Positions 36,005 to 61,369 of a DNA stretch of 64,000 nt are shown here, piece after piece. The first letter of the stretch is position 1. Each line of letters begins with the position of its first letter. The position numbers and the translations under genes are program-made. This stretch comes from Auriscalpium vulgare (lineage: Eukaryota > Basidiomycota > Agaricomycetes > Russulales > Auriscalpiaceae): positions 372,001 through 436,000 of the forward strand of contig JAHBBC010000025.1 of NCBI GenBank assembly GCA_019915015.1, given 5' to 3'. Below the pieces are notes generated by a model, which did no database searches, was not told the DNA's origin, and saw nothing but the letters and a program-made list of their open reading frames with translations.

Positions 36005-36074
36005 GCCGAATCGAAAACGAAAGGCGTTTGAAAACGAAACGGAAACGAAAACGGTCTACTCTGAGCTCCCCTAT
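36005..36074 (-). repeat. Right terminal inverted repeat of the Harbinger-like element
   Basis: 70 bp, perfect partner of 32686-32755. Confidence 0.9.
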
Positions 36075-36700: not shown

Positions 36701-36761
36701 AAGACGGCCACATAATCAACGCAACATCTTCGCCAAGCGTCAGCCCGGTCGAGCACACAAA
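36701..36761. repeat. 61-bp direct repeat, first copy (second at 37227-37287)
   Basis: The two copies differ at one base (GGCCACATAATC against GGCCATATAATC). They enclose 465 bp. Confidence 0.9.
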
Positions 36762-37897: not shown

Positions 37898-38659
37898 TCA
37901 TCGCGGGTCCGAGGCGACAAGTGCAGGTGGCGGAGAATGGTCTGGGCCTGAGTATGCAGACCGGAGAGGAAGCGATGGCATAAGATGAGTCGCACAAGTA
38001 GGGGATCCGGAGCTATCAGGCTCTCCAGCTCCTGTGGACAGGGACGAGTCGTGCGCGGACCGACGAGGTGGCAAGGTGTGCGAACGGGATCGGTATGAGT
38101 GGCACGCGGCGGCGATGACGGGCGTTGGGATGACGGTGGGCGAGGGGTGCGCGTCCGAGCGCGGGGTGCGCAATCTGTTTTAAAAACAGTACTTGAGCAA
38201 TAGGCAGACGACGGAGGCGGTGCACCCGAACTCGCGCTGCACGATGCGCTCCCATTTGAGCTTGAGGTCGCGCAGCTTCGCCTCGTGCACGGCGAGCTCC
38301 GAGCACAGGTCGAGGCAGCGCGAATCCTTCTGCACGATGAACTGCAGGAGATTTGCGGCCTGTGGGCGCCAGTCAGCACGTACAAAATTGAGGTGAGGTG
38401 AGGAAGGCTCACTTCTCCGCAAGTGTGAGCACTGCGGGCTCCACCGGCCGTTCTCTCGCCTCTTTCAGAGCTCTCGGTCTGCTTCAGCGGCGACGAGATA
38501 AGTAGATGCGCGCTGCGGCCGGGCGCCCATGAGAGCGGGCTGCCGGGCGGGAGATACGAGATGGGCGTCTGGCGGCGCTGTGCGCGGGGCGCAGGTGAGG
38601 GTATGTTGGCGATCGAGGCTAGCGGGACGCTGGCGGGCGCGGGGAGGTGCAGCGCAGGG
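37898..38659 (-). pseudogene. 3' part of a host-type gene, cut by the KDZ element
   Basis: Minus-strand coding sequence runs from the element edge: exon 38659-38413 (TPISYLPPGSPLSWAPGRSA, then LISSPLKQTESSERGER), a 53-bp intron (GTGAGC...CACAG), exon 38359-38226 (AANLLQFIVQKDSRCLDL through LKWERIVQREFG, likely coiled coil), a 51-bp intron (GTGCAC...AACAG) and a third exon from 38174 (RTPRSDAHPSPTVIPTPV). Frames agree across both introns, so this looks like a real protein. There is no start; the open frame reaches the inverted repeat at 38660, so the 5' part should lie beyond 59582. I cannot name the family. Confidence 0.5.
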
Positions 38660-39372
38660 CATCAGGAAATTTTACCCATCCTATGTAGATCTATGACACC
38701 TGCATAGCACATATAGTAATATAGGAAGGTCAAGTTCTATGTGGTCCTATGTAGCCACCCCTCCCCACTACACAGCGCTATATAGTGCACAGACCATGCT
38801 ACATTGTGCTACCACCACTACATAGCGCAGCCTGCCATCTGTGGTGCTACAGTAGTCACTGTAGTCAACTGTAGCCAACACAGCATGGATTGACTGCATT
38901 GCCACCTGTGCCATCATATTCAGTGTAGGAGGTGTTGGCTACGATGCCACCATAGTAGACATATGCAGTGTTGCTGCTTTACTATGCTATGTGCACACAG
39001 TAGGCTGTGTATGCACCAGTGGCTACACATGCACTTGCTAACAGCTATGTTCACTATCTTGGCAGCACAAGCTATAATGCTTGCACCAGAAGCTCTGTTG
39101 ACCATACAGCCTAGGGCACTAGCATAGGACCATTCAATATGATCATCCAAATGCAATAGACATTAAAACCATCTGGCATTGAGTCTATCATAATGAGCCT
39201 GTACCTGTACTACTTGGCTGGAGAAAGAGAAAAGACTGGGATATCAAATGATGGAAGGATAGCCTGGATATGCGACAATATAGGGAATATTAATGGACGA
39301 GAGATCACTTAATGAAATAGGAAGCACGTAGTGAATGTATCTGGAACATTGAAGAATTAGTCAGGCAAAAAG
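38660..39372. repeat. Left subterminal repeat region of the KDZ element
   Basis: No gene. Many short words built on CTATGTAG, CTACATAG, CATAGTAG, GTAGCC and GGCTAC occur in both orientations, densest from 38680 to 39000, and they also occur at 59320-59570. They are probable transposase-binding sites. Confidence 0.65.
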
Positions 39373-41432
39373 CTACCTGAGGAAGAGGGACAGACTTGGA
39401 GGATCGACGAATGGACGCTCTATCTTAGGATGATCGAGGCATATTTGATGGGCCAGCCTCTGCGTTGGGAACCGGGGCTGGCTGGCACCATGATCGGACG
39501 AGTCCTTGACATACTCCAACCCATCTTCAGTCACGCGTGGCGCGGTCCCGTCGTCTAGGAAGTCATCATCAGAGTCTAAGTCCGCGTTGGTCTGCAACCC
39601 AACGGTGGTGCTCAGCCCCGAGATGGTCCTGCCCAGCCGTTCAGTAAGCGGCAGTCAAATCAACGGAAGACGTACAGGGCCTCCGACCATATGCGTCGCT
39701 GTAATGACGCCAGTGCACCTGGCTGCATCTTCTTGAACTTCTCGAGAGACGTGAGATGTCGGATGTATACGGTCTGGTAGCTGTCGTGGTTGAATTCGTT
39801 GCCCTTGGTGGTTTTGACCCCGGTCTTCCAGTCGCACAGAGCGCATTCAATCTGCCAGATAGACGGTGAGAGAAGCCTAACGACACAAAGCGCATGATGA
39901 AGACAACGCACGGATGTCACCAGGAGTGCAATGAGATTCAACGACACTGGGTTGAAGCGTGCGGAATAAAGACCAGCTGCATCGGCCTTGCTGTTAGCAA
40001 GCCACTGCGCTGCGAATAGGGCGGGGATGATGGTGTTTCCAAATGGCCCACGTCGCTGGGCTGTAGCTTCAGCAGAGCATGGGATGGTGGAACAATCAGG
40101 GCCGCACCTGGTCGAGATTCCGAAAGTGAAACAAACTCTTCTTCAACAGCTGCTGCACAGCATCCTGCGCGTCGTACTTGGCGTCGACCTGGATGAGGCG
40201 GTAGTGCGAGGGAACCAAACTTTGCGCCTTCGTCTTGACCTGCCCACGAAGCTGCCAGGTGCGCTGGCCGATCTAGAGGGAGACAGCGTTGGACAGCGAG
40301 GTGAAAAGGAGAGAAAAACTCGCACTATGGACAGCATTGTTTCCCGATACAGCTGGTCCTTATCAAAGCGCGCCCGCCGACGTGGCGCTGAGAGCTCCCG
40401 ACAGGCCTCGAGGTAGCTAGCCTTACTCATCTGCACCGTCTCTGCGTCCTCGGGAAAGCCTTGCTCGTTGGCGACCTTGATCCTCATGTGAATGTTTGCG
40501 ACCCTGAGGAGGCCTTTCGTTGCCGGTGACTGCTTTTTCTGCAGCGCCCGAGCAGCGCGTGCTGGATCGTATGGCGTGAAGGGCACTTCCTTCGAAGCTT
40601 GCTGGCGGCTTGCGCGAGGCGGCGTTGACGGCGTTGACATCGGACCAGGGCTGGATGTGCGCGGTGGGCTGGACGACGGCGGCAGGTTGACGTTGCCCGA
40701 TGGGCTGAGCGAATGCGATGAGTTGCTCTTGTTCTTGAGGCGCGCGGGAAGCTTGCTGGCGACCGGCTTTGGGGTGCTGAAGCGGATCTACGGAACAAGT
40801 TAAGGGCATACTGGGCTGCTGGCAAGTATGACTGACCTCAGGAATCCTAGCGTCGCGCGGCAGAGGGTCCTTCCTCGCCTTCTTGCTGGCGGCCTGGCGC
40901 GAGGGTTGCTCGGCAGCTTCCTCCTCGTTGTCTCCTGAGTGCTCTGAGCCCGCTACCTACTGGTCAATATTCAACACAGCGTACCAGCGAGAACGGCTTA
41001 CAATATTCCTTCCTCTTGCGACGCGCCCGGTATTCCTCGTCCTCAACGACGCTAAAGTCATCCTCGCCTATATCTGCCTGAGCGTCGCGCTGCTCCATGC
41101 TTTCAGGCATATCTGCGTCAGCATCCTCGTCGTCGTCTTCCTCTTGAGCTTCTGCCGCCTGAAATGCTGCCTCGGCCTCGTTCGATTCCTGTTCGTCCTG
41201 CAGCCGATCTTGCTGGCGTTCTAACGTTGCAGTTGAAGATGGGCTTGGCGGGACATGCAAGCAACGACGTACGTTTTTTTTTGGCTGCCTTGGCCGCCTT
41301 TTGAGCCTTCGCCAACAGATTCCTGAGTGTCGCTTCGTCCAGCCGGCTGACATCAACCCTGCCGCTCGGCGACGGCGGTTGCTGGTTGCTACGAGTGTTC
41401 ATGGCGCGTGCAGGCGCAGGGTTGCGAGCCAT
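39373..41432 (-). CDS. DUF6532-like protein encoded within the KDZ element
   Basis: Eight minus-strand exons keep frame throughout: 41432-41273, 41220-41002, 40952-40837, 40787-40326, 40272-40108, 40055-39912, 39851-39676 and 39628-39373, giving 565 residues. The N-terminal half is disordered and charged (NEAEAAFQAAEAQEEDDD, then RARRKRKEY) and suggests a nuclear protein. The C-terminal half resembles fungal DUF6532: ARFDKDQLYRETMLSI, IGQRTWQLRGQVKTKAQ, GPFGNTIIPALFAAQW, LNLIALLVTS joined to IECALCDWKTG, then TSLEKF. The function of DUF6532 is unknown. Start could be ATG 41432 or 41402. Confidence 0.65.
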
Positions 41433-41811
41433 GGCGCATGTAGGCGCAGGGTGAAGGACGGCTTGACGTGGCACGGGAGAGAGAAGGGGCGGACGAAGCG
41501 GAGGCCAAGCGGGCTCGCGGCAGGTAAATATGACAGGTCGGGTAACGGTCACATTCAAGACCAGCGATTCAGATTACATACTACGTACAGACAGCAATCA
41601 CTTGCATCCTCCGACTGCCTTTGAGGAGACCTGTGACCAAAATGGCACCAAGAAACACGCACGTACGATAACACAGAATTTTTTCACCTCGGGCCAACGC
41701 AGCTGAGAGAACCGACATGGAGCGTTGATGAAGGAGCTAGTGTGCACTGAGTTAGTACACAGGAGCAGAAGACGACTGGGAGGCGTCAGCATGCACGCAC
41801 CTACGTCTCTA
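41433..41811. other. Spacer inside the KDZ element
   Basis: Between the DUF6532-like gene start and the end of the next minus-strand gene; probably the DUF6532 promoter. No other feature. Confidence 0.4.
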
Positions 41812-42387
41812 TCACTCCTCGGAGGACTCCTCCTCATTGATGTCCATCAGCTGGGGGCGTCCCACGCAGTTCAATTCGACTCGATAGCGGGGGCTGTAAT
41901 TCAAAGTAAGATTAGATGCGGCGTGTTCGTGTTCACAACTCAAGGCACAAGTTACCCAAGAACAAGCCCACTAAGACGGTCGCCCTTGTCGACAGCCCAC
42001 TTCAGCTGCCCGGCCGCGTCCGTTGTGACCTGGAACTTGATCGTCAACTGCTGGGGGCCTGAAGTGCTTGACAGCTTTTTGAGCGTGGTCGGAATGGCTG
42101 TGAGGATCTCCAAAACCTCGGCGGCAATGGACCCGCCGCGGATTTTAGGCTGGCCTGTCGGAGCACAGACGCGGGTGGGGCCTTGGATGACTGGTCGCGC
42201 CCAGGATGTTGGTCCAATTGTAGTGAATGCGAGAACCCCGGACGCATGCAGATCAAGATGAGCCACCTGAAGCGGTGCAAGGCATAAGCAGGCTGCTCAG
42301 TTATCAATGGGACCGCCGACGTACAAATTGACCTGATCGAGGTATCGTTGCGTAGAAGATTACTTGAGCCTGGGTAACGGTGACTCG
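41812..42387 (-). CDS. Small protein, second of two tandem paralogues (unknown function)
   Basis: Minus-strand exons: an incomplete first exon ending 42325 (V-T-V-T-Q-A-Q-V-I-F-Y-A-T-I-P), 42266-41956 and 41893-41812. It matches the neighbour at 42493-43063 in sequence (HLDLHASGVLAFTTI, GQLKWAVD, YRVELNCVGRPQL) and in both intron positions and phases (0, then 2). The tail is acidic (DINEEESSEE). No in-frame ATG exists upstream before the stop codon of the neighbour, which is in the same frame. So either an unseen first exon supplies the start, or the copy is 5' broken or made as part of a joint transcript. Confidence 0.5.
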
Positions 42388-42492
42388 CGGTGCCCCCAAG
42401 CGGTCTGCGGTGGTGGCGGGGTAAGGGGAGAGATGACGACGTGCCAGATGCGGGGTTGGGGCTCTAGATGCAGATGAGCAAAGGAGTGCGAG

Positions 42493-43063
42493 TCAGAGAG
42501 AATCTTGGTCGCACTCTGCCCCCATCTGCGGCTGCTGAACAACCTTCAGCTGCAGCCTTCCCACCGCATCCAAACCCACTTCGTAATTCGAACTATGATG
42601 CAGTGTTCCAGTCAGTAGTGCTGGCTCACCGTGCAGGACGAGAACGTACCCAAACTTCAAGCCCTCCAGGCCGCCCTCTTCCAGACTGAATTCGATATTC
42701 CCATCCGCATCCGCGGTGGCTCGCACATTGATCTTGAAATGGTCCTGGTATCCTTGAGCGCTGTCGGAGTTGGGCGGCAGCATCTTGGGGACAGTTGCGA
42801 GCATGCGCGCTATCTCTGCTGTGGCGGAGTGGAAGGTCGCACGGTTGGTGGCCAGGTCTTCAACAATCTCGGGAGGCCAGGCATTCGGCGAGATAGTCGT
42901 AAAGCATAAGGCCCCCGACTTGTCGATGTCGAGGTGCACGACCTTGAGCGATAAGTATCGGGGTTAAGTCAGCGCGCGCCGTGATCGACAGAGATCGGCG
43001 ACGTACGAAACGCCCAGAACCAGGCACCGTCATATAGAAGAGAACCCGCGATTGCGAATGCAT
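42493..43063 (-). CDS. Small protein, first of two tandem paralogues (unknown function)
   Basis: Three minus-strand exons, 43063-43007, 42942-42650 and 42592-42493, introns of 64 and 57 bp at phases 0 and 2, total 149 residues. Visible: MHSQSRVLFYMTVPGSGRF, HLDIDKSGALCFTTISPNAW, a helix EIARMLATVPKML, then FKINVRATADADGNIEF and NYEVGLDAVGRLQLKVV. Alternating strands suggest a small beta-rich domain. I do not recognise the family. It lies back-to-back with the plus-strand gene at 43591 and is part of the KDZ cargo. Confidence 0.6.
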
Positions 43064-43590
43064 TGTGCTGTCGACGACACGCAGATGGGCGGATGGGACT
43101 CAAGGGTTGGGATGCAAAGCGATGATGGGGGATGGGGGGCAGGGGGCAGCAAGAAGCGGTCTCCGTTGCTGCGTCTTAAGTACAGGGCCCTAGAAATAGA
43201 ATAAGTAATGGACCTGCCCCCTTAGAGAGCTAAGGTTCAACGAGGCGCTGGGGACTCTGAGGTAACGCGGAGCTGAGGGAGCGGGCGGCGATGAGAGAGC
43301 CGGCAGCGATGAGAGAGCGCGCCGACGACGCGAGACAATCTAACATTGTAAGTACTGTATACTGGGCTCTCTGTTTGCGCTACCAGCGACTTTGCTGCGG
43401 AAGACGGTGAGCATTGTGCTGATTTACTGAGCACGAGGCGCACGAGGCAGCCAGCAGGCAGGCTGCAGGCAGGGCAGCGAGCAAACACGCGACACTGCGC
43501 AAGAATCAGATAAGAGGCGCAGCACCTCGGCTCACCCTCCCCAGCTTCCTCACCTCTCCCACACCTCTTCAATCAGCGCGTTCGTGCACA
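43064..43590. promoter_or_regulatory. Divergent promoter region between two cargo genes
   Basis: 527 bp between a minus-strand start (43063) and a plus-strand start (43591). Contains a short repeat GGC(G/A)GCGATGAGAGAGC (43285-43320). No core promoter element identified with confidence. Confidence 0.4.
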
Positions 43591-44488
43591 ATGGCAACTG
43601 GGGTAAGCTATTGACCTCAGCGCCGTTGTTGCGACTGCTGATCGGCGCTCTACAGGATACCTTGCAAGACGTGAATGTTGTCGTTGCAGGACACGGCACG
43701 GTGGACGTCGTTTTTAGGCCGGCAGACTTGGGAGCGGGCACGGTGCGTCCTTGCAGCTTCTTAGCATCCACGAGCTCTCGCTGATAGACGTCGTTGCTGC
43801 TTGTAGCACATCAGATTCCTTTCGATTCCTCACGATGGTCCCAACCCCGCGCCCGCGCGCGATGGCCAACCCGCCATGCGTGCTATGCCCACTGAAGTGC
43901 GCGAAATCACCTCCAGCCGCCACACACTCGCTCCTGCTGCAGACCCTCCTCCTGCCGCCAGCGGCAGCCCTGCGCTGCTGGGCCAACCTATCGTGAACGC
44001 CCCGGCTCCCATCATCCACTGCGCCCCGCCGTCTCTGCGAGTCGCCAGCCCTGGGCACTCTCCCATAGACGTCGATCGTGCCGACTCCCCTGGATTGCAG
44101 GCGCACCATGAGGGCCAAGAGTCAGACAAAGCAGAAGCCTCGGAGCACGACAATTCGGGGCACGACAGCGACATCCCTCTTGACGACGACCCCAGCATGA
44201 TGTTGCTCACGATGTCGCAGATGGCGCAGATGGGGGTGCACGGCTTGTCGGACAGCGAGGTGGCCAGGTTGGGGCTCCCGCCCGGGATCTACGTGGATTT
44301 CTCGGAACAGCCTAACTTTGACGGCGGCGAGTCTAGCGCCAGGTAAGTGCCGTGCGTTTGCTTAGGAATTCACTAATGCAATCCAATCTAGCGACGCCCA
44401 TCTGCCGCCGTCGCAAGCGAACGCTGCGCGTGCGTCCCCCGTCAAAAAGCGGGCTGGTCGCAGGGTCCGCAATCCGAGGGGGGTCTGA
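43591..44488 (+). CDS. Small acidic protein with basic tail, KDZ cargo (unknown function)
   Basis: Four exons fit in frame: 43591-43602, 43656-43742, 43807-44342 and 44392-44488, 243 residues. The first coding exon is only M-A-T-G. Then DTLQDVNVVVAGHGTVDVVF, a proline-rich stretch, an acidic centre (ESDKAEASEHDNSGHDSD, IPLDDDPSMM), LSDSEVARLGLPPGIYVDF and a basic end (VKKRAGRRVRNPRGV). The charge layout suggests a nuclear or chromatin-associated protein; this is inference. Alternative start or splice choices at the 5' end are possible. Confidence 0.5.
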
Positions 44489-45157
44489 GGAGCGGGGGAA
44501 GCGGCCCTCATAGCTAGGCACTTTTGCGACTCTGTGTAGATAACAATGCTTGAATTACTTGTCTTTGAATCGTCAACGCGGGTGCAGAGATCTCAGGGCA
44601 ACATGGTCACCAAGCGCCCAAGTTGACGTTTGATGCGTTGAACGCAAAGTCCGCGCCCGCCACACTCTCTTTCTTCGCCGCCGCCGCACACTCTCTTTCT
44701 TCGCCGCCTCCCACCACAGTTGGAGCCCTCCCGCCGCAAATTCGACGCGTTGCACGCCTTGCTTGTTGCGTTTAGCGCGTCGCTTTGCTTCCCTGCGAGC
44801 TTTTGGTGAGCTTCTTCATTTGCCTGCGCGTCTTGCACGGAATCGCTCCCGGCTCCTCTCGATGCAAAGGCACCCTCAGTGTTCCCAATGCTGACGAGCC
44901 TTATTGCCAGCTTCTTTGCGCGTCACTTGATTTGCCTATTCGGTGAGCTTCTTCATTTGCCCGCGCGTCTTGCACGGAATCGCTCCCGGCTCCTCTCGAT
45001 GCAAAGGCCTCCTCGCTGTTCCCAATGCTGACGAGCCTCATTCCTAGCTTGGTGCAATAGCAGTCAGTGCCTCCGATCCTATCCTGGTGAGTCTTCTATT
45101 GTGCGCCTGCTTGACAGCACACTCATGCTTTCTACCGCTTGTGCCAGCTGGCGTGCC
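44489..45157. repeat. Upstream region of the dioxygenase gene with a tandem repeat
   Basis: A unit of about 95 bp starting GGTGAGCTTCTTCATTTGCC occurs at 44815 and again at 44942 (period 127). A smaller repeat around CACACTCTCTTTCTTCGCCG lies at 44658-44707. No gene seen; it probably includes the dioxygenase promoter and leader. Confidence 0.7.
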
Positions 45158-47010
45158 ATGCCTCCGCTCTTCAAAACGGTGAGCACTGATCGATGCATTT
45201 GTATTCCCGCGCTGACTGTCTGCTCATGTCTGCCCGTAGCTCCGCTCTCAGAAGCGGTATTCGCCGTACGCCCGCAGCCTGCTCAAGGATGCACTCGCTG
45301 CATACTCGGAGGCCGACTTCGACCTGGAAGCTGCCCTGCGGGCATCCATGGATGACTTCAACGCTGCTCTCCAGCAAGAACAGCAAGATGCTGCTCCATT
45401 GCCTGCGAATGCACCCGCCAGGCCCCCTTCCCCTTCGTTCAAGCAAGGCCAGCAAGGCGCTCATGCCAGCGCGCCGCCCGCCCACGCACCCGCCAGCGGC
45501 GCTTCCTGCCCTCAGCAGCCTCCAGCCCCCGACAACCATGCACCCCGAGCCCTGCCTCGCCCTTCCCCTGCAGAACGATGGCCGGGAGAGCGCACCCAGC
45601 ATGCCCGCGATCGAATCCGCCGCCTCAACAAACGGCGCAAGGCGGCGGCTGACGCTCCGCACGGGCTGCCGCCTGTCACTCCTCGAATTCAGGAGGCGTT
45701 CAAGAAGCAGCCCACTCTGTCCACTCCGTATAACGCCCTCAACTTTCCAGTGGCACGCGGAGCTCATATTGTGCAACGGGGCGTTCATCCCTCCGCTGAA
45801 CCGTTCGTCAACAAGAAGAAGCCATGGCTAAGCAAGGAGATCCCACTAGCAACATTTGTGGACGACCTCCGCTTTCAAGTCAAAAAATGGGACGGCAGGT
45901 GCGTGCATAGTGAGCTCGGCGAGCCCAGTGCGCTGATATCCCCTTGCTGTAGCCATTGCGAGTCCGTCTTGGATAGAAAGGGCCGCGTGCTGGCACAACT
46001 AGCTGCCCCGCCCCGCCGCGATGCATCTTGGGAGAGCGTCCCCCAGTCTGTGAGCGCAGAGATGCAGGATGTCGCCAAGGCCTGCCCCTTCTCCCCGGGA
46101 CAGCAAGCACACACCCGCGGGCGGTACCCCTTGCTGTCTGCAGGCTACATGCACGGCGGAGGACCAAAGGTGCGTGCGCAATCTACTCTTGTGGCATTGC
46201 TGGGCTCATTTATTCCACAGATGCCTTATAACATCTCGTACGACAACAGCGAGCAGGCGGCAGCAGCGCAGAGGCTTTTGAGCCACGAAGGGGTGCGGAG
46301 GCTCGCAGGGCTGGGCAGCGGTGCGTCGTTTGGTCGCCATCTTGTCTTCCACATAGCTAATTTTGCCCATGCCAGGCGTCTACCACACCTTCTCCAACAG
46401 CGCTTTTGAGCGCTGCGCGGGGGCGCTCGACGACGTTGTGGCTCACCAGCCATTCCTGAGGAAGCCCTTCGTCAACAGCATCTTTCCCGCAGTCACATTC
46501 AACTTTGGGCCGCGCGCACTCACCGTCCCTCACCGCGACTCCCAAAACGTGCCGTATGGCTGGTGCGCTGTGACCGCACTCGGCGACTTTGACTACCATC
46601 TCGGAGGACACCTTGTGCTGTGGGACCTGGCGCTGGTTATCGAGTTTCCGCCCGGCTCCACCATCCTCATCCCTTCCGCCCTCATAACCCACAGCAACGT
46701 GGCTATCCAGCCTGGCGAAACTCGGCAGTCCATGACGCAATGGTGTGCTGGGGCCCTGATGCGATGGCAGGTCTACGGCTGTCGCACCGAGAAGACTATG
46801 CGGAAGGAGGATCGCTCCCTCGCGGAATCGTTTGACGCCGCTGCTTCAACCAGCTGGGACACCGCTGCGGCTTATTTGCCCACCTGGAGCGGCGAGCTGC
46901 CGGAGTTTGTGCAGGGTTCGTCTTCCGATGGTGGGCCTTCGTCAGATGCACAGGAGGGCTCGAATGTCAACAACGAGGCCTCCGAGTCACCAGCTGGATC
47001 CTGTGCATAG
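45158..47010 (+). CDS. TET/JBP-family 2-oxoglutarate/Fe(II) dioxygenase
   Basis: Five exons, 45158-45178, 45240-45898, 45953-46169, 46221-46320 and 46376-47010, keep frame and give 543 residues. The C-terminal domain has the fungal TET/JBP signature: FNFGPRALTVPHRDSQN with the iron-binding H-x-D (about H385, D387), YGWCAVTALGDFDYHLGGHL, FPPGSTILIPSALITHSN with the distal His (about 438), and GETRQSMTQW with the Arg (about 449) that should bind 2-oxoglutarate. All four key residues are present. TET/JBP enzymes oxidise 5-methylcytosine or thymine in DNA. The N-terminal 200 residues are proline/glutamine-rich and disordered. The first exon encodes only M-P-P-L-F-K-T. The gene lies in a KDZ element, the known genomic partner of these genes in mushrooms, so it may protect the element from methylation-based silencing (inference). 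Confidence 0.85.
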
Positions 47011-47025
47011 GGATAGGGCGAGCGC

Positions 47026-48182
47026 TGATACGCCCCCAGCGCGGGTGGCTTCTGTTTTCGCATTTTTGGCACGTTCTATCGCCTCAACATCGACTATCGC
47101 AACACATCGCGCTCGCAGTTCCAGCCAAGACGCTAGCACACTTGTAGCAACACGGGCCTATACTCCTTGACGTCTCCATCGATTCTCTACCATCCAGGCC
47201 ACGCAGGATGATTGCACAAGTCCCCAAGTCATGTGTACACGCCCACCAAGTCACCAAGACGTTCTGAGCCAGCCATTAGCATTCTGTGCGCACGTCGCAA
47301 TGTCTCGCGCATACATCCACATGTTGCCCTCGCCTCCCACCTCGTTCCCAGAGCGTCCTAGCGTTGCGCAGCCCCTCGACACGTCACCCACAGGTCCCAG
47401 GGTCCGGTCTAGATGCAGTGTCTCAGAGCAATGTTCCGGTTTGATGGTTTCCGATACGTCGCGATCCGCATATCTCGGAGTTTCACATGGAGATAGCACA
47501 GCCTTGCTGTTCCGATACGTCGCGATGCTTGTTTCTGATTGGATACGCCTTCTAGAATGTCTCACTATCCCCATACTTACCAGATGACTCACAGTAGCCA
47601 CAGAGACATGTTTCCCGTGTATATCTGTTGGTAGCTAGGTCACTGAATATCAGACAACTTCTCCCCTCCAGAGTCAACGTCTCAAACCTTTGCAACATCG
47701 TTTTATCGCGTTCAACATCGACCTCGACCTTCAACTTCGCAGCGCCCAAGATTATAGCCTTCACCTTCGCAGAGCCCACGTTTACAAGCCTTCAACTTCG
47801 CAGAGCACATTGTTTTCACCTCGTCCAGCGTTATCGCGTTACGTCGCGACCTTCGTATCACCTTGTCCCCTTGTCCCCTCATCCTCGCCTTTGCTCCCCC
47901 ATCGTCTCAGCCCTCCAGCAAGGTATTCTCAAGCTCGCTACACATCGCAACGTCCTGTTCCGCACCAGCAGTGTCGACTTCCATCCCAGATCACCTTGTC
48001 CATCGTCCTATCGCCCTCCAAGTCACCTAGCGACTTCCCCCCAGCGTTCACGCCTCTCCCCGAGTCATCTGTAGGTCCTGGGACGCGCCCCCAACCTGTT
48101 ACTAGCACCGCTCGAGCCAGCAGGAGTTGGTTTTGTGGTTTGTTTTGCCATCTGACCGCCTGTGCGCCGAGATAGGTCATCA
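47026..48182 (+). repeat. 5' LTR (1157 bp)
   Basis: Begins TGATACGCCCCC, ends TAGGTCATCA. Same as 54741-55896 except for one extra C in the run near 48037-48044. It starts 15 bp after the dioxygenase stop codon. Confidence 0.95.
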
Positions 48183-48186
48183 TTTG

Positions 48187-48204
48187 TGGAGCCCACCGCG
48201 AGGG
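48187..48204 (+). promoter_or_regulatory. Probable primer-binding site
   Basis: TGGAGCCCACCGCGAGG starts a few bases after the LTR with the TGG expected opposite a tRNA CCA end. The tRNA was not identified. Confidence 0.5.
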
Positions 48205-48644
48205 GCACTACCAGGATTGCTTCAGATCACTCTCGTTCATCTTCCACACCCCCTACACATCGACATCGCTATCCTACTCGAGTCTCCTCCCTAGCCGCAG
48301 AACTTCGCGAATCGTTTGTCGTTTGGCCCCCCAGTCCAGGAGAACTCTTTTCCTCAGTCCCTAGTCCATTTGCGACACACAACAACCTTCCTTCCGACCT
48401 TCTCAGTGATATCAACCTCCTAGATCCATTAGAAGACTCTCCACCGTTTCCAGGAAGCTTCCCATCGTCGCCTCGCCCCTTGTTACATCCCGTCACATCG
48501 CGCACTCCGCCTTCGCCATCGCCCCAGCCTATTTCCACACCTCCAGCCATCACCAGTCGTCTTCCATCGCCCGCCGTTTATATCGCGAACCGTCGCACAC
48601 ACACCGTTCAAGTCCCTATCACCAATCCCCAACCTTTTATCGCG

Positions 48645-50843: not shown

Positions 50844-53800
50844 TTATCTAGAAGATGGTGAAGAAGTCGCCCTCATCTTGGAAGGCGACGGCGCGAGTGT
50901 TCGCGCACTTGCTTATACCCCTCTTGACCCTTCAGACGAATCCTCGCTCCAGTTTGCTTATTTAACCGCCTCCGACGCTCGTTCTTTGCTTCCCAACCAC
51001 GCCGCTCCAGCAGCTTTTACAGTTTTGACTTCAACGTTCGCTCCAAATCCCGCCTCAACGCAATCCACACTCTTTTCTACCTTTGCCTCAGACCTTCGTC
51101 CATTGCCTTTGCCAGAGAATCAGATACCCCCAGTTCGCGAAACGTTTGCGAAGCGCAAGTACAAGCCCGTTGCCCAGAAAGTCAAGCCTGTGCTAGGCTC
51201 AGTCCCAGAACAGTTCCGCATAGTTCGCAACATACAGGGAGATCCCCTTGCATCGCTCCCTATGCTCCCTACGCATCCCCCGCCCTTTGTACCCACCGGA
51301 CGCTACACGCAAGAACGCAAAGACACTGTTGATAGCCAAGAGTGCTACAATTTCCTTCAGCCAGCCGAACGAGACCTATTGCACCACGTCATTTCAGTTC
51401 ACAACGACGCTTTCGCTTGGAATGACTCAGAGCGAGGCAGTTTCAAGCGCGAGTTCTTTCCTCCAGTCCAAATCCCTGTCGTTCCGCATACACCTTGGGT
51501 ACAGCGCAATATTCCGATCCCACCAGGTCTTTACAAAGAAGTCACAGACCTCATTCGTCGCAAGATTCATGCAGGCACATATGAAGACTCGAATTCATCG
51601 TATCGTTCGCGTTGGTTCTGCGTCGCGAAGAAAGATGGCAAGTCGCTACGCATTGTTCACAGTCTTGAGCCCCTCAACGCCGTCACTATCGCACATTCCG
51701 GAGTCACACCCACGCCAGAGCACCTTGCAGAACAGTTCGGAGGCCGCGCATGCGGTGGAATACTCGATCTCTACGTTGGCTATGACGAACGCCTCATTGA
51801 CGAACACTCGCGAGATCTCACTACGTTCCAGACGCCCTTTGGAGCCAAGCGCCTTGTCACCCTACCCATGGGATGGACGAACTCAGTTCCTATCTTCCAT
51901 GACGACGTCACGTACATCCTCCAGCCTGAGATACCAGCGATTACAGTCCCCTACATCGACGATGTCCCACTCAAAGGTCCCGCATCCGAGTATCTTGACG
52001 AATATGGCAAGCCCGAGCACATCGCGAACAATCGCAACATCCGCCGTTTTGTCTGGGAGCACTTCCAGAATGTCAACCGTATCTTGCAGCGCATGAAGTA
52101 TTGTGGTGGCACATTCTCTGGCACCAAGTCTATCATTATCAGTCGCGAGTTCACCGTTCTTGGCCATCGTTGCACCCCAGAAGGTCGACGTCCTGACGAG
52201 TCCACTGTCTCAGTTATCCGCAACTGGGGCCCCTGCAAAGATGTCTCTGACGTTCGTGCATTCCTTGGTACCATTGGAGTCTGCCGCATTTTCATCGACT
52301 CGTTCGCGAAACGTGCCCACGTCTTGACACAGCTTACTCGCAAAGGTGTCCCATTCGAGTTCGGACCAGAACATATTGCCGCTCAAGAAGACCTTAAAGT
52401 AGCCTTGCTCGCCTCGCCAGCGCTCCGTGCCATCAACTATGAATCACCCGACCCAGTTGTCTTAGCTGTTGACTCCTCGTACATTGCAATAGGCTATATC
52501 TTAGCGCAAGACGTCGCGACCCCCAAGAAGACGCTCCGCTATATCAATCGCTTTGGTTCTATCACGCTCAACGACCGCGAACGACGCTTCTCCCAGCCTA
52601 AGCTTGAGATTTACGGCCTTTTCCGTGCACTACGCACACTCCGCATCTATCTACTTGGCGTTCGCAACCTAGTTGTTGAAGTAGACGCTAGCGCTATCAA
52701 AGGAATGCTCAAGAACCCGGATCTCGTCCCTAGTGCAAGTATCAATCGATGGATTCTAGGCATCCTCATCTTCCATTTCAAGCTTCGCCACGTTCCAGGG
52801 GTTCGCCATGGACCAGACGGGCTTTCGCGACATAGACAAGAAGGTGAAGATACCCCAGCAGAGACAGAACAAGATGACAGTTATGACGATTGGCTTGATA
52901 ACATGCATGGATTCCTTCACATTGTCTACCCTTCGCCTTCTGCGTTTCGTTCCCACATCCTAGCTGTGCCCACCCACCCTCCCTGCTTCGCGACCTATGC
53001 CCTGACCGAGGACGGTCAAGACTTCAGTAAGGAGGAGGAGGAGCCCAAGCTCTGTTATGACGATGTGCCACGTTCCGACTCAGCTAGAACCCACGACCTT
53101 CGCATTCAAGCAGTCCACAATTGGTTAAGGAAACCAGAACGCCCAGAAGACTTGTCAGATTCTGAGTTCGCGACCTTTGTCCGCTATGCGACGCGCTTCT
53201 TTATCGACAAGACAAGACTTTGGCGACGCAGTCTTGATGGCGCACACAAGCTTGTGATACAACCAGCTCAACGACTTCAAGTTCTTGCAGAATGTCATGA
53301 TCGTGTTGGACATCGCGGAGTTTTTGCTACAAGATCGCTTATTCAAGAACGTTTTTGGTGGCCAGCTTCCGAAGCGGATGCCATGTGGTATGTCCGCAGC
53401 TGTCTCATCTGTCAGCAGCGTCAGAAGCGTCAAGTTCTCATCCCCCCGGTTGTTGCGACACCCGCTGCGCTCTTCGCGAAGATCTACGTTGACACAATGC
53501 ATATGCCAGTCTCTAACGGCTTTCGCTATATTGTTCAAGGACGCTGTTCACTCACCCAGTACCCCGAGTTTCGACTCCTACGCCGTGAGACAGCCAAGGC
53601 CATTGCAGATTGGGTCTTTGAAGATATCCTTTGTCGTTGGGGTTCATTAAGCGAAATCGTCACAGACAACGGAGGCCCATTTGTCAAGGCACTTGACTAT
53701 CTGTCCAAGAAGTACAACATTCGCCATATTCGCATCAGTGGTTACAATTCGCGAGCCAACGGCATCGTTGAGCGTGCACACTTTGACGTTCGTCAAGCAT

Positions 53801-54492
53801 TGTTCAAGGCCTGCGATGGAGAACAGAGTCGCTGGTCTATGTCTGCGCACACAGTCTTTTGGTCCGAGCGCCTTACTACAAGACGCCGCATGGGTTGCTC
53901 GCCCTACTTTGCAGTCACAGGTTGTCATCCGCTCATTCCCCTTGACATATCCGAAGCAACGTACCTCTTGCCGCCGCCCACGTCCATTCTTTCGACCACA
54001 GACCTCATTGCACGACGCGCCATAGCCCTCCAGAAGCGACACGAGCACATTTCACACCTGCGTTCCAAGGTTTTTGCACATCGTCTAGCAGCAGCAGAGC
54101 GCTTTGAGCGTGACCACGCAGCGACCATTCGCGACTTTGATTTCAAGCGTGGAGACCTTGTATTGATCCGCCACACCGCTATCGAGAAGTCGCTAAACCG
54201 CAAGATGCGCCCTCGCTATCTAGGCCCCCTTGTTGTTGTATCGCGAAACCGCGGAGGCGCCTACCTTGTTGCAGAACTAGATGGTTCCGTCTTTGATCGA
54301 CCCATTGCCGCCTTCAGAGTCATCCCCTTCTTTGCGCGAAAGCGAATTGAAGTGGACTTAGATGCCATTGATATTGACACTACTCGACTTCGCGAACTAG
54401 AAGCTTCCCAGTCCTTAGGAGACGATGACAGCTTAGAAGACATGCCAATAGCCGATGAAGACGACATGGATGGTCCCCCAGATGGCTCCTGA
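50674..54492 (+). CDS. Pol polyprotein: reverse transcriptase, RNase H, integrase
   Basis: Open frame of 1272 codons in +1 relative to gag, with no ATG near its start, so expression by +1 frameshifting in the overlap 50674-50843 is likely. RT: FCVAKKDGKSLRIV, FQTPFGAKRLVTLPMGWTN, catalytic PYIDDV. RNase H: VLAVDSSYIAIGY, LVVEVDASAIKG. Integrase: zinc site H-x3-H with CLICQQ, then DDE residues in KIYVDTMHM, VTDNGGPF and NGIVERAHF, and a C-terminal GPY-like module (RYLGPLVVV). No stop or frameshift, so the element may be active. Confidence 0.9.
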   Translation: MDAPSTLSQRVLCATSRTKTRLLRFAIPTRQLLSQCLRSLEGIIGFESHRRQLSLLDYLEDGEEVALILEGDGASVRALAYTPLDPSDESSLQFAYLTASDARSLLPNHAAPAAFTVLTSTFAPNPASTQSTLFSTFASDLRPLPLPENQIPPVRETFAKRKYKPVAQKVKPVLGSVPEQFRIVRNIQGDPLASLPMLPTHPPPFVPTGRYTQERKDTVDSQECYNFLQPAERDLLHHVISVHNDAFAWNDSERGSFKREFFPPVQIPVVPHTPWVQRNIPIPPGLYKEVTDLIRRKIHAGTYEDSNSSYRSRWFCVAKKDGKSLRIVHSLEPLNAVTIAHSGVTPTPEHLAEQFGGRACGGILDLYVGYDERLIDEHSRDLTTFQTPFGAKRLVTLPMGWTNSVPIFHDDVTYILQPEIPAITVPYIDDVPLKGPASEYLDEYGKPEHIANNRNIRRFVWEHFQNVNRILQRMKYCGGTFSGTKSIIISREFTVLGHRCTPEGRRPDESTVSVIRNWGPCKDVSDVRAFLGTIGVCRIFIDSFAKRAHVLTQLTRKGVPFEFGPEHIAAQEDLKVALLASPALRAINYESPDPVVLAVDSSYIAIGYILAQDVATPKKTLRYINRFGSITLNDRERRFSQPKLEIYGLFRALRTLRIYLLGVRNLVVEVDASAIKGMLKNPDLVPSASINRWILGILIFHFKLRHVPGVRHGPDGLSRHRQEGEDTPAETEQDDSYDDWLDNMHGFLHIVYPSPSAFRSHILAVPTHPPCFATYALTEDGQDFSKEEEEPKLCYDDVPRSDSARTHDLRIQAVHNWLRKPERPEDLSDSEFATFVRYATRFFIDKTRLWRRSLDGAHKLVIQPAQRLQVLAECHDRVGHRGVFATRSLIQERFWWPASEADAMWYVRSCLICQQRQKRQVLIPPVVATPAALFAKIYVDTMHMPVSNGFRYIVQGRCSLTQYPEFRLLRRETAKAIADWVFEDILCRWGSLSEIVTDNGGPFVKALDYLSKKYNIRHIRISGYNSRANGIVERAHFDVRQALFKACDGEQSRWSMSAHTVFWSERLTTRRRMGCSPYFAVTGCHPLIPLDISEATYLLPPPTSILSTTDLIARRAIALQKRHEHISHLRSKVFAHRLAAAERFERDHAATIRDFDFKRGDLVLIRHTAIEKSLNRKMRPRYLGPLVVVSRNRGGAYLVAELDGSVFDRPIAAFRVIPFFARKRIEVDLDAIDIDTTRLRELEASQSLGDDDSLEDMPIADEDDMDGPPDGS

Positions 54493-54727
54493 CTCCTTTG
54501 TTTTGTTTCTCTTTCCAGCATGCTACGCATGGTTTCCCTTGTGTTTGTTTAAGTTTTGTTTCCCTTTTGCCCATGCCATTTACAGAGACCAAGAAGGGAC
54601 ATTCAAGTTCGCTATATGCTTCACTCTTCCATTTCTGTATCCTTCCGTTCCCACCCACCGCAGCCCCCAGCACTCCTTTGCCGACCCGTATTCAACGCAC
54701 GCGCTGACCGAGGACGGTCAGATCTTC

Positions 54728-54740
54728 AGTAAGGAGGAGG
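54728..54740 (+). promoter_or_regulatory. Polypurine tract
   Basis: AGTAAGGAGGAGG ends exactly at the TG of the 3' LTR, the expected plus-strand primer site. Confidence 0.85.
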
Positions 54741-55896
54741 TGATACGCCCCCAGCGCGGGTGGCTTCTGTTTTCGCATTTTTGGCACGTTCTATCGCCTC
54801 AACATCGACTATCGCAACACATCGCGCTCGCAGTTCCAGCCAAGACGCTAGCACACTTGTAGCAACACGGGCCTATACTCCTTGACGTCTCCATCGATTC
54901 TCTACCATCCAGGCCACGCAGGATGATTGCACAAGTCCCCAAGTCATGTGTACACGCCCACCAAGTCACCAAGACGTTCTGAGCCAGCCATTAGCATTCT
55001 GTGCGCACGTCGCAATGTCTCGCGCATACATCCACATGTTGCCCTCGCCTCCCACCTCGTTCCCAGAGCGTCCTAGCGTTGCGCAGCCCCTCGACACGTC
55101 ACCCACAGGTCCCAGGGTCCGGTCTAGATGCAGTGTCTCAGAGCAATGTTCCGGTTTGATGGTTTCCGATACGTCGCGATCCGCATATCTCGGAGTTTCA
55201 CATGGAGATAGCACAGCCTTGCTGTTCCGATACGTCGCGATGCTTGTTTCTGATTGGATACGCCTTCTAGAATGTCTCACTATCCCCATACTTACCAGAT
55301 GACTCACAGTAGCCACAGAGACATGTTTCCCGTGTATATCTGTTGGTAGCTAGGTCACTGAATATCAGACAACTTCTCCCCTCCAGAGTCAACGTCTCAA
55401 ACCTTTGCAACATCGTTTTATCGCGTTCAACATCGACCTCGACCTTCAACTTCGCAGCGCCCAAGATTATAGCCTTCACCTTCGCAGAGCCCACGTTTAC
55501 AAGCCTTCAACTTCGCAGAGCACATTGTTTTCACCTCGTCCAGCGTTATCGCGTTACGTCGCGACCTTCGTATCACCTTGTCCCCTTGTCCCCTCATCCT
55601 CGCCTTTGCTCCCCCATCGTCTCAGCCCTCCAGCAAGGTATTCTCAAGCTCGCTACACATCGCAACGTCCTGTTCCGCACCAGCAGTGTCGACTTCCATC
55701 CCAGATCACCTTGTCCATCGTCCTATCGCCCTCCAAGTCACCTAGCGACTTCCCCCAGCGTTCACGCCTCTCCCCGAGTCATCTGTAGGTCCTGGGACGC
55801 GCCCCCAACCTGTTACTAGCACCGCTCGAGCCAGCAGGAGTTGGTTTTGTGGTTTGTTTTGCCATCTGACCGCCTGTGCGCCGAGATAGGTCATCA
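54741..55896 (+). repeat. 3' LTR (1156 bp)
   Basis: Partner of 47026-48182; followed by GCGC, which matches the four bases before the 5' LTR. Confidence 0.95.
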
Positions 55897-56098
55897 GCGC
55901 AGTGCATATCAATTAGCTACCTGCTATTTAGTTTATACCCCAAATTGCAAAATGGAACGGCCAACGCTTTGTCGAGCAAGATGGGATACGATACTTTTTG
56001 CCTGAGACACCAAACAGAGACGGGCCGCGTCGCCGAGCCCGCGACGCACTACTTGCTGCCTCCTACGCTTTCCGTCATTCCTACACTTTGTTTCCGTT

Positions 56099-59000
56099 AT
56101 GATCTTTCCATGCAAAAGCTGCGGGGCTAGTTTTGGTAGCAGCGGGGCTCGCAAAAGCCATGTCAAGCAGTCAAAACAGTGCAATTGGATGGTCAACGAG
56201 CTACAGAGTCTGCCTGCGTCAAGGCAGGTTGATTACATGGATCCAAGCGATGGCGAGTCGGACCCCGAGCAGGAAGACGATAGCAATGTCTTTCAAGAAC
56301 TTGACGACTTCGACAACACCGGGGCTAGCAGTCGCCCTGCCTCACCACCATCCCCTCCTCGAACCCCATCCCCAACTCCGACTCAGCCCGGCTCATCCAG
56401 TGCCTCTCAGCGAGCGCAGGCTGAGGACGATCTCGAGACAGAGCCAGCTGTTGTGGACGTGTATCCTGGAGCGGGTCGAGTGCTCTCTGTCGATGCCAAG
56501 AAGGAGGACGAGTATCGAAGACGCGTGGCAGCTGCAGATGCCAACGCCAATCCCTACCATCCCTTCCGCAGCCGCTTGGACTGGGAGGTGGCAAAGTGGG
56601 CTAAAAGCCAGGGCCCGACGCAAACCGCGTTTTCAAAACTCCTCGACATCGACGGGGTGCGTCACATCATCTCTTCTCCTTTGCTCTTGTCTGAAATCCT
56701 ATGCACCAGGTCCATGAGCGACTTGAACTCTCCTACAAGGATTCTCGCTCATTGAATCAGCTCATTGATAGCATTCCCGCCCCTGCAAAATGGCACAAGA
56801 CGGAGCTGAAAATTGGCGAAGACGACGAGGCCTATTCCCTGGTATATCGGGACCCGCTTGAATGCATCCGCTCACTCTATGGCAACGTCGCGTTCGTGGA
56901 CAGCATGTCATACGCACCTCGGCGGGAGTATTCAGGCGCGACTCGCGAGGAGGAGGAGAGGCTGTACAACGAGATGTGTACGGGCGACTGGTGGCATGAG
57001 ACGCAGGTGCGTCCTTGGTGCATTTCATCCCGGCCCATAACTAATTGTATCAATCAGGCGAAGCTCCCGGGCGGCGCGACTGTGGTTCCGGTGGTCTTCA
57101 GCTCAGACAAGACGCTGCTGACAAACTTCAGTGGTGATGGCTCGGCATATCCGCTGTACCTCACCATTGGCAACATTGACAAGGACGTCCGTCGCAAGCC
57201 TTCGAATCACGCCCACATGCTCGTTGGCTACCTCCCTACACCCGACCTCAGCCACCTCTCCAAGATCGTCGCAAGCACAGTTCGCGCAAGGATCTACCAC
57301 GCGGCAATGAAGATGATTGTGCAGAGCCTGGAGGCCGCCGGCCGAACGGGGGTTCAGCTCGTCGGGGGCGATGGAGCCATCCGACTCTGCTTCCCCATCC
57401 TTGCCTGCTATGTGGCCGACTTTCCAGAGCAGGCCCTCGTTGCATGCACCCGGGGCAGTCGATGCCCAAAGTGCGAGCTGCGTCGCGGTGGCTTTGGCGA
57501 CCATAAACATGGATCGCCAGCGCGGCAGCAAGGGTCAACCATTCGCATTATCCGACGCGCTGCGAATGAGCCCACAGCCGCGAAGCAAGAGGATATGCTG
57601 AAGGAGGCTGGTCTCATCAACGTCACCCATCCTTTCTGGGCCAACCTTCCTCACTGCAACATACACGACACGATCACCCCCGACATCCTGCACCAGCTTT
57701 ACCAAGGCATGATCAAGCATCTGCTGGGCTGGCTCTCCAACCTGATGGGCGAGGCCGAGCTCGACGCCCGGTTTCGAAGGCTTCCTGAGGCACACGGCAT
57801 ACGCAGGTTCCTGAACGGGATCAGCGGACTCTCGCGCGTCACCGGTGGTGAGCATAAAGAGATCTGCAAGCAGATCTTGGGGTGTTTGTTGGGGAAGGCG
57901 CCTGCGGGGGCAATTCGCGCGGCGCGTGGCCTGCTCGACTTCCTCTACATTGCCCGCTATCGCAGTCACACCGGGCAAACCATCGGGTACTTGCGAGACG
58001 CCCTGGACCTGTTCCACAGAAACAAGAAAATATTCCTGAAGATGTCCGCCAGAGTGGGCGCGGGTGCGTTGCTCTCTATGCTATCAAGTATCCCTTTACT
58101 GATTCTGGCACACACGATAGGCGACGGCTTCGACATCCCCAAGCTGGAGTCCCTGCAGCACTATATTCCTTCGATCTGCGCGATAGGCACGACAGACAAT
58201 TGCGACACAGAAACGACGGAGCGCCTGCACATTGACTTCGCAAAGGTAGCTTATCGGGCTTCAAACAAGCGGGAGTACCTCGACCAGATGATACTCTGGC
58301 TGGAACGCAAGGAGAAGGTGGTTGCGCTGGCTGCGCAAATAGCGTGGCGATCTGGAGAGCGCCAGTCCAAGACGGCACGACGTGCTCGGGTAGCACCCTC
58401 ATTGTCTTTCCCATCTGCTGCATCGACATCAAATACAGCCGCGGCCACCCCATCCCTATATACGACGGCATCCAAAACTGATGGTCGCATCAAACTGGCC
58501 AAAACACCCGCTGTCGCATCGGTGCCCTTCGTCCAGCTCGAACAGGCGTATGGTGCGCGGGATTTCATCCCTGCCTTGCAAGCCTTTCTCAGCGAACACA
58601 TCGGTGATCGCCCCAGGCGGAGCGATCGCGCACTGCCCCTGCTATTCAACTCAGTGGACGTCTGGCACAAGATCAAATTCGTCCTTCCAAATCTGCAGCT
58701 TGACGAGCTTGCCGACACAACCAACACTGTGACAGCCAAGCCACCGACAGGAGATAACCCCGGGAGATTCGACACTGTCATCATCGATGAGGACGATAGC
58801 GTGGTCGAGCGAACGGGGGTAAAAGGTGAGCATAACGTGATCAACGTGGCAGCAATGACGCGCTAACAATACAGTAGGCCAGCGCATCGGCCGTCTGCGA
58901 GTCATATTCAAGCTACCGTGGTCCGTCAACGAAGAGCTATTCAAATCCAAGGGCGTCGATCCTCCAGGCCATCTGGTGTTTGTCGAATGGTTCTCAAGGC

Positions 59001-59239
59001 CCACAGAAAAGGACGGCGATACCGATATGTTCAAAATTTCCAAGAGCAAGAAGTCAAATGGAAAAGGATTGGTCTCGTCTGTTATCGAGGTAGAGTCCGT
59101 TCGTCGTGGATGTCATCTGATCCCTAGGTTTGGAGCTCATGCAGATAGAGCTTGGAAGTCTTCAAATGTGCTTGATCGATGTGACACATTTTTGTTGAAT
59201 AACTATGCAGATCAGCATTCATTTCAATCTATTTGGTAG
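56099..59239 (+). CDS. KDZ/Plavaka-type transposase
   Basis: Five exons, 56099-56656, 56710-57006, 57058-58063, 58121-58825 and 58878-59239, keep frame and give 975 residues. The N terminus is a zinc-finger-like segment (FPCKSCGASFG...KQC) and a long disordered acidic region. The core shows segments typical of the fungal Plavaka branch: VVFSSDKTLLTNFSGDG with YLTIGNIDKDVRRKP (from about residue 286), a CPKC zinc insertion (about 421), TPDILHQLYQGMIKHLLGW (about 490), and TDNCDTETTERLHIDFAK (about 645). The C-terminal EWFSRP and RRGCHLIPRFG also fit. No stop or frameshift, so it may be active. The third intron is 57 bp and has no stop, so unspliced reading is also open; the last acceptor is CAGTAG, two tandem choices in the same frame. 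Confidence 0.85.
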
Positions 59240-59582
59240 CAGCTTGGTCAATCAAATATATTTGCTGTACTGTCCATCTTATTTCTGAGGGTCACAAAGG
59301 GCTGTGATATCTAAGTATCAGCTGGACTCTGTAGGGGGTTGTAGTATACATAGCAGAGTATGTTGGCTGTGTAGATAACATAGCTCATGTAGCAGAGTAT
59401 GTGGGCTGTGTAGCTGCTGTAGCAAACTTATGCTGCTCTATAGGACTACCATAGTGGGCTGTGGAGGCTGCATAGTACACATTGCAGATGTTGACATAGT
59501 GGCACTACATAGATAGGCCTTCATGCACTATAGCCTACACATATTTGTGCTGGAGCTATGTAGGAAAAGATTTTTCCTGATG
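59240..59582. repeat. Right subterminal repeat region and end of the KDZ element
   Basis: Dense short words (GGCTGTGTAG, CATAGCAGAGTATGT twice, CTATGTAG) like those at the left end, then the inverted end CTATGTAGGA...TTTTTCCTGATG. Confidence 0.7.
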
Positions 59583-60940: not shown

Positions 60941-60973
60941 TATATAGCACCGTGGAGCGCATACACTCTTTCG

Positions 60974-61251: not shown

Positions 61252-61369
61252 GTATGTGACATATCCTTCTCGACTTCCCGCTCTGACAGCACATCTGCAG
61301 CATCACGTTGGCGACGACTTTCACGAGGTCATAAGGTACGCTCGTTCCTTACGACTCACTTTTTTCAGT

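Follow-up and report, generated by a model that had tools for sequence, protein, structure and literature searches.

A 64,000-nucleotide stretch of the Auriscalpium vulgare genome (assembly GCA_019915015.1; C25:372001-436000, C25 being contig JAHBBC010000025.1), referred to below as the window, carries a 12-kb PlavakaB transposon, a member of the CACTA-like DNA transposons, whose ends enclose a Plavaka transposase, a divergently oriented DUF6532 gene and a gene for a TET-like dioxygenase. This enzyme is predicted to oxidise the 5-methylcytosine of its own element, and would probably thereby counter silencing by the host. TET-carrying (TET+) Plavaka elements were published in December 2025 (Kojima 2025, PMC12730594; this and the other papers are cited here from excerpts of their text), and the element of the window is a variant with another dioxygenase type, a host of another order, a recurrent DUF6532 partner and CpG-poor ends. 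As a complete and recently mobile example, it unites a transposase, a partner gene and an enzyme predicted to modify methylcytosine in one travelling unit, and it points to a role in transposons for DUF6532, a domain without known function. In addition, TET+ and TET-less relatives occur side by side in one genome, which makes both the escape from silencing by TET and its aiming at the element itself directly testable.

Borders, copies and classification

The element occupies positions 38660-59582 of the window on the plus strand (20,923 bp including a nested retrotransposon). A search of the 51.6-Mb assembly (96 contigs) for other copies with the same ends, which the preliminary description of this DNA had proposed as a check, returned three that share its borders, namely copy B (C25:581421-593468, minus strand, 12,048 bp), copy C (C26:544675-565599, 20,925 bp) and copy D (C8:126878-138426, 11,549 bp), the window element being copy A. 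The four copies are ~99.9% identical, indels aside. Homology to the left end (window 38660) begins abruptly at the same base at C26:544675 and C8:126878, the left end of copy B lies at C25:593468 on the minus strand with a left flank in common with the window copy, and the right end (window 59582) falls on the same base in all four. A left-end query of 202 bases (196 bp of element and 6 bp of flank) matched these four places genome-wide at E<=1 and no fifth one. The termini CATCAGGAAA..TTTCCTGATG are present in all four copies and agree with the CATCA..TGATG ends of PlavakaB. Both the inverted ends and the matching subterminal words of the preliminary description were recovered: the terminal inverted repeat CATCAGGAAA is exact over 10 bp (38660-38669 on the plus strand and 59573-59582 on the minus strand, both read directly), and the word CTACATAG occurs three times in the left 620 bp, twice in the right 340 bp and not at all in the element interior, with ~0.1 occurrences per end expected from Markov sequences used as control.

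Copy B reads GCAGGG, element, GGGTGCTG across its junctions, and the uninterrupted flanking repeat at C26 and C13 reads GCAGGGGTGCTG, giving a target duplication of 2 bp (GG) against two empty sites, which match copy B over ~2-2.7 kb on the left side. Copies C and D have target duplications of 3 bp (TCT) and 2 bp (GT), respectively, and all three copies therefore show the 2 or 3 bp duplications of PlavakaB. Copy A has no target duplication, with GGG at the left and TCT at the right. Its left flank, a dispersed repeat at 36073-38659 that is uninterrupted at C26 and C13, is that of copy B (from 36073, with gaps and zero mismatches), and its right flank (59583-64000, to the window end) is that of copy C. 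Copy A thus joins the flanks of two insertions, and is either a product of ectopic recombination between copies or an assembly join. Common borders, short target duplications and several insertion sites show that the element is real, and the four copies together with the empty sites rule out an unrelated gene array lying beside a transposon.

The interval 38660-59582 had previously been described as the element without mention of a long terminal repeat (LTR) retrotransposon nested within it (47026-55895, plus strand, 8.9 kb, with Gag/Pol recognised by eye). The borders stand, whereas the size does not: the retrotransposon inflates the window copy to 20.9 kb, and the element proper measures 12.05 kb without it. 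The two LTRs (47026-48182 and 54741-55895) are 99.9% identical, implying a young insertion, which starts 15 bp 3' of the TET stop codon and is flanked by a 4-5 bp duplication. It is present in copies A and C only, and its absence from copies B and D, with copy B holding its empty site, rules it out as an original part of the unit.

The transposase gene (56099-59239, plus strand, 5 exons, 975 amino acids) matched the Plavaka domain PF18759 at E 5.2e-110 with 368 bits (cut-off 26.3), and DUF6830 at E 1.1e-08. A CPKC is visible in the protein, unaligned; PlavakaB transposases are characterised by C(2)C plus H(3-4)H between the second D and the last E. Membership of the Kyakuja, Dileera and Zisupton group (KDZ), part of the preliminary description, did not hold, as Pfam found no match to the KDZ domain PF18758 in the transposase and the target duplications are of 2-3 bp, not the 7 or 8 bp reported for KDZ (PMC12730594), which rules out a KDZ element. 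No KDZ match was present within 200 kb of the element on C25 among the matches listed. In the excerpts of Kojima 2025 (PMC12730594), Plavaka is grouped with CACTA/EnSpm rather than KDZ and split in two groups, of which PlavakaB has CATCA..TGATG ends and 2-3 bp duplications and contains every TET+ Plavaka reported. The element agrees with PlavakaB in the three structural characters tested, and is a PlavakaB (CACTA-like) transposon.

The TET-like dioxygenase and the DUF6532 partner gene

The TET-like dioxygenase gene (45158-47010, plus strand, 5 exons, 543 amino acids) encodes the motif HRD..N.....C together with the distal H and R. An alignment of 53 rows (the window exon and 52 relatives chosen from 63 matches) showed HxD in 52 proteins, with one gap, the distal H in 52 and the R in 53, all of them present in the window exon, and Asn at H+5 and Cys at H+11 in 53/53. 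The HxE of the PE type, to which the published TET+ Plavaka belong, is replaced by HRD in the window, and the AG signature (Gly/Ser at +5 and Asp at +11; PMC12730594, PMC11040006) is not present either. By its spacing from the HxD motif, the H+5 position would correspond to Gly331 in CcTet and Asn1387 in human TET2, in which the substitution N1387G gains 6mA activity (PMC11040006). Within the searches made, a Plavaka-borne dioxygenase with a predicted HxD site and Asn at +5, not HxE, is new. The nearest proteins are from A. vulgare and Artomyces pyxidatus, both Russulales.

The motif was kept in all 30 fetched TET loci (the best 30 of 106 matches, eight of these loci being fragments of the four focal copies), and the ratio of nonsynonymous to synonymous substitution (dN/dS) was 0.03-0.12 in 13 of 16 printed pairs over 86 core codons, at dS of 1.2-3.0, near saturation, the remaining three pairs being saturated. 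Such codon comparisons show a putative catalytic core under purifying selection between elements. The AlphaFold model of a close relative, P0001 (65% identical to the focal protein), had a mean predicted local distance difference test score (pLDDT) of 89 and a predicted template modelling score (pTM) of 0.85, and its top 22 matches among solved structures were CcTet, NgTET1, CMD1 and human TET2, which shows a TET fold in the modelled relative. The transposase, TET-like and DUF6532 gene models are open in copies A and C, and the first two genes had been described as intact-looking in the window copy.

The DUF6532 gene (39660-41432, minus strand, 7 exons, ~485 amino acids) is divergent from the transposase and matched PF20149 at E 4.7e-42. 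Its exons 4-7 align to the A. vulgare protein P0064, and exon 6 was made three codons longer after this comparison. A homologue search returned a single protein, and the structure model (pLDDT 35) is not usable. Genome-wide, 48 DUF6532, 80 Plavaka and at least 75 TET places were distinguished from 49 of 77, 82 of 127 and 80 of 106 matches, respectively, the dropped matches being neighbouring exon matches of places kept; with 80 of 183 TET candidates scored and 109 of 168 KDZ matches used, TET counts and KDZ neighbour counts are minimum values. Among the matches listed, 34 of the 48 DUF6532 places had a Plavaka transposase within 10 kb and 2 of 48 had a KDZ one, with uniform chances of 3.0% and 4.0%, which ignore the clustering of transposons, for which the KDZ comparison serves as control; in addition, members of one family are not independent observations, and the Fisher value of the association therefore overstates certainty. 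Within 20 kb of Plavaka, 41 of 48 places were found, 35 of these 41 being 5' and divergent, and seven were farther than 20 kb from any Plavaka match. DUF6532 is therefore a recurrent core partner of Plavaka transposases and not the incidental cargo that it had been taken for. The excerpts of Kojima 2025 (PMC12730594) mention neither DUF6532 nor CpG nor subterminal repeats, and DUF6532 is listed beside Plavaka without link or role in the excerpts of the literature searched.

With regard to TET, 20 of the 80 Plavaka places (remnants included) had both DUF6532 and TET within 10 kb, 16 had DUF6532 only and 10 TET only. Where TET was 50% or more identical to the focal gene, Plavaka lay within 10 kb in 27 cases versus listed KDZ in 2, and where identity was lower, Plavaka did so in 4 cases versus KDZ in 18, among the matches listed; neither transposase was within 10 kb at 26 of 75 TET places among the same matches. 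Each TET lineage tends to follow its own transposase superfamily. In the focal family the TET gene lies on the 5' side of the transposase; elsewhere it is usually 3' (26 of the 33 cases within 20 kb), implying that gene order changed at least once.

The same gene core was shown inside the ends of other families. Family F4 (C22:729432-745310, 15.9 kb, compared with C51, ends CATCTGGAAACC) encloses DUF6532, a transposase with 40% identity to its focal counterpart, and a TET gene 45% identical to the focal TET over 309 columns and 63% in the core. The first 100 of 376 CATCWGGAAA matches gave 11 convergent pairs on C1-C5. Transposase, DUF6532 and TET all lie inside one of them (13.3 kb), transposase and DUF6532 without TET inside two (6.48 kb), and none of the three genes inside the other eight; 2-bp duplications were read at the C4 pair (AT) and at the C2:2698783 pair, one of two on C2 (TC). 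Separate ends for TET and transposase are ruled out, both being enclosed in the focal, F4 and C4 elements, and in this one genome no independent ends of the two genes appeared, which had been named as a finding that would overturn the proposed unit. The single mobile unit of the preliminary description is upheld by several insertion sites, short target duplications and the enclosure of DUF6532, transposase and TET in F4.

As a separate observation, a second and more distant TET lineage appears tied to KDZ, 18 of its 29 places (below 50% identity) lying within 10 kb of listed KDZ. Short convergent CATCAGGAAA pairs of 1.2-2.4 kb without Plavaka, DUF6532 or TET matches were also detected, and may be non-autonomous relatives (C1:1168608-1171018, C1:1238048-1239838, C2:758674-761043, C3:1758709-1759860, C4:1357115-1358926 and C4:1371570-1373381).

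The existence of TET-less PlavakaB elements raises the question of whether the TET gene is a passenger or a captured host gene without effect on element fitness. Equal-score transposase matches at C2:2702176, C11:1031503 and C11:1054329 suggest that TET-less elements multiplied, so that TET would not be needed to transpose, and the varying position of TET among families points the same way; however, the low dN/dS of the core between elements (with dS near saturation) and the motif kept in 30/30 loci argue otherwise, and make a mere passenger very improbable.

The comparison of the focal and F4 families by tblastn did not find DUF6532, implying that this gene either changes more rapidly than the transposase or has partly decayed in F4. 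Conserved transposases alongside repeat-binding proteins of little mutual similarity have been reported for CACTA elements (PMC2613891). Divergent pairing, fast change and subterminal repeats suggest, by analogy, a TnpA-like role for DUF6532, which would bind the subterminal repeats.

CpG footprints and the proposed mechanism

Both ends of the element are poor in CpG. The left subterminal region (38660-39259), with CTACATAG-type words, has 3 CpG in 600 bp, and the right one (59183-59582) has 0 CpG in its last 400 bp. Over the outermost 341-342 bp, observed/expected (o/e) CpG is 0.16 and 0.00 at the focal ends (interior median 0.97), 0.76 and 0.23 at the F4 ends, and 0.18, 0.18, 0.65, 0.18, 0.26 and 0.12 at six further TET-side ends. 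TpG+CpA at TET-side ends is 1.17-1.72. The ends of the TET-less C2 family have CpG o/e of 1.00 and 1.25 and TpG+CpA of 1.05 and 0.86, and 1,184 overlapping background windows had a median CpG o/e of 1.09, with none at <=0.2 and 1.0% at <=0.4. A recognisable end was found in 8 of the 30 fetched TET loci, of which seven had CpG o/e <=0.40 over 400 bp and one had 0.69.

Substitutions among copies also involve CpG. All 12 distinct substitutions among the focal copies are transitions, nine of them CpG-to-TpG/CpA or the reverse, and with a CpG share of 26% of C and G positions the probability is ~5e-4. Other TET-locus copy comparisons gave a mixed picture: CpG changes made up 30 of 59 in four pairs and 1/10, 2/3, 2/6, 0/1 and 0/4 in five further pairs; two pairs had no substitution, and the flanking repeat had 2 of 7 at CpG. 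C5-methyltransferase matches were present at three genomic loci. These traces fit methylation followed by deamination, as far as base composition and copy differences can indicate. The CpG changes between copies imply that any TET protection was incomplete or that oxidation itself is mutagenic there.

The mechanism that would follow has several steps. The transposase would cut at the CATCAGG ends together with DUF6532, which, like TnpA in En/Spm, may bind subterminal repeats, here CpG-poor ones; the host would methylate element copies, and the TET product would oxidise the methylcytosine of the element, which might then stay expressed or able to move. Both the action of TET on its own element and its aiming by DUF6532 are steps that we infer. 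In an extended form, PlavakaB would be a two-part self-liberating system, in which a TnpA-like DUF6532 brings TET to the subterminal repeats of its own element, oxidation is aimed at the ends, and the CpG-to-TpG scar of TET+ ends, not seen in the sampled TET-less family, is the record of such aimed methylation and oxidation; this form is tentative and rather doubtful.

It is also possible, if rather unlikely, that an active TET product works genome-wide and untargeted, the element being one of many beneficiaries, which would be compatible with relief from silencing. Published maps in other mushrooms put oxidised methylcytosine on retrotransposons too (PMC12730594), ~75 TET places imply that products could be shared, and Pfam recognised no DNA-targeting domain in the focal TET protein. 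On the other hand, each TET lineage tends to keep to one transposase superfamily, a pattern to be expected if every TET served the element that carries it, and low CpG is confined to the ends. Another chemistry could also account for the loss of CpG and the excess of TpG/CpA that are seen at most of the sampled TET+ ends and are absent from the one TET-less family. Instead of taking methylation away, the dioxygenase would then produce a durable modified base as a mark or shield for the ends, with CpG loss as a by-product. The fold matches include CMD1, which is related to TET and differs from it in chemistry. Nevertheless, the Asn at the position of TET2 N1387 (CcTet Gly331) is invariant in 53/53 proteins and fits ordinary 5-methylcytosine recognition, and Pfam recognised no glycosyltransferase among the open reading frames (ORFs) scanned, so that a lasting base is improbable.

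A number of observations weigh against the element described here using its TET product against its own silencing. At the borders, the empty-site match extends only 48 bp past the right junction of copy B, beyond which its flank diverges. As for the enzyme, Pfam Tet_JBP scored 12.1-14.1 bits on the focal protein, under the curated cut-off of 34.9, and reached E<=0.01 in 18 of 53 aligned proteins (best 3.7e-5); sequence and profile searches of the focal TET against solved structures returned no TET chain; and the fold matches of P0001 are moderate (query TM 0.36-0.54 and identity 12-16% in the top 22). The TET gene of copy D has a one-base deletion and the DUF6532 gene of copy B differs by one base, either of which could be an assembly error. 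In the genome, both DUF6532 and TET are missing within 10 kb of 34 of the 80 Plavaka places, and Plavaka is likewise missing within 10 kb of 44 of the 75 TET places. Two TET+ ends are only mildly CpG-depleted (F4 left, 0.76; C10, 0.65), a single TET-less family underlies the CpG contrast, and full TET protection would be expected to make CpG transitions rare, whereas they account for 9 of 12. Moreover, the published oxidised methylcytosine on retrotransposons argues against self-targeting. Taken with the shared ends, the complete set of predicted catalytic residues, the constrained core and the CpG-poor termini, TET-mediated relief of the element from silencing is still considered probable.

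Remaining genes and comparison with known systems

Two tandem paralogues and a small charged gene lie between DUF6532 and TET. Paralogue 2 (41952-42296) and paralogue 1 (42493-42963), both minus-strand ORFs whose starts were not modelled, are 34% identical and had no Pfam match. In the search of its own genome, their family was confined to the focal family and a diverged tandem pair at C4:377-378 kb. In copy D, a deletion of ~494 bp at C8:130.4 kb joins the two paralogues in frame. The diverged pair (C4:377455-378416; 68% and 35%) adjoins sequence 71% similar to that of the element, and CATCAGGAAA occurs ~6.5 kb from it. Conservation of the left genes at a fixed host locus without the transposase had been named as evidence against a mobile unit, and did not appear in this one genome; left genes lacking a nearby transposase were seen in this pair and in the 7 of 48 DUF6532 places beyond 20 kb from Plavaka, and not otherwise.

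The gene for a small charged protein, provisionally modelled from two ORF pieces (43431-43784 and 43807-44346), belongs to a block at 43509-44585 on the plus strand. This block of ~1,077 bp occurs at seven other places with 99% identity (two on C56, and C51, C2:3193416, C26:19276, C13:1656669 and C42), five of them whole, C13 having 1,027 bp and C42 two pieces. None of these copies has the neighbouring sequence of the 2.1-kb query, implying that the block has its own history. Five of these places have a TET gene (59-64% identical) on their contig, ~14-30 kb from the block. F4 contains a counterpart of the N-terminal piece of the small charged gene (54% over 54 columns).

Among known systems, the closest are the TET+ PlavakaB elements of Agaricus bisporus and Gymnopus confluens (PMC12730594), which share the Plavaka transposase, CATCA..TGATG ends, 2-3 bp duplications and a TET/JBP gene inside the ends. 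According to the same excerpts, these two Agaricales are the only species from which TET+ Plavaka were reconstructed, an earlier report having implied a TET-Plavaka association in five fungi including A. bisporus (PMC12730594). Unlike their dioxygenases, which are of PE type (HxE) and from Agaricales (PMC12730594), the focal one has HxD and Asn at +5, with its nearest proteins in Russulales. TET+ KDZ elements likewise combine a DNA transposon with a TET/JBP gene, yet differ in transposase superfamily and target duplications, and the KDZ-linked TET genes in this genome form a more distant set. The plant CACTA element En/Spm (TnpD plus TnpA) resembles the focal element in short target duplications, repeats near the ends and a second protein. 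To our knowledge, En/Spm carries no TET. Its transposase belongs to a related clade (PMC12730594), and TnpA has been reported to bind subterminal repeats (PMC2613891) and to correlate with demethylation (PMC10398659). Finally, VANDAL transposons of Arabidopsis and their VANC proteins (PMC10398659) offer a parallel for transposon-encoded removal of silencing marks at the noncoding repeats of the element itself; VANC is a sequence-specific binding protein, whereas the focal element encodes a predicted enzyme whose targeting is hypothetical.

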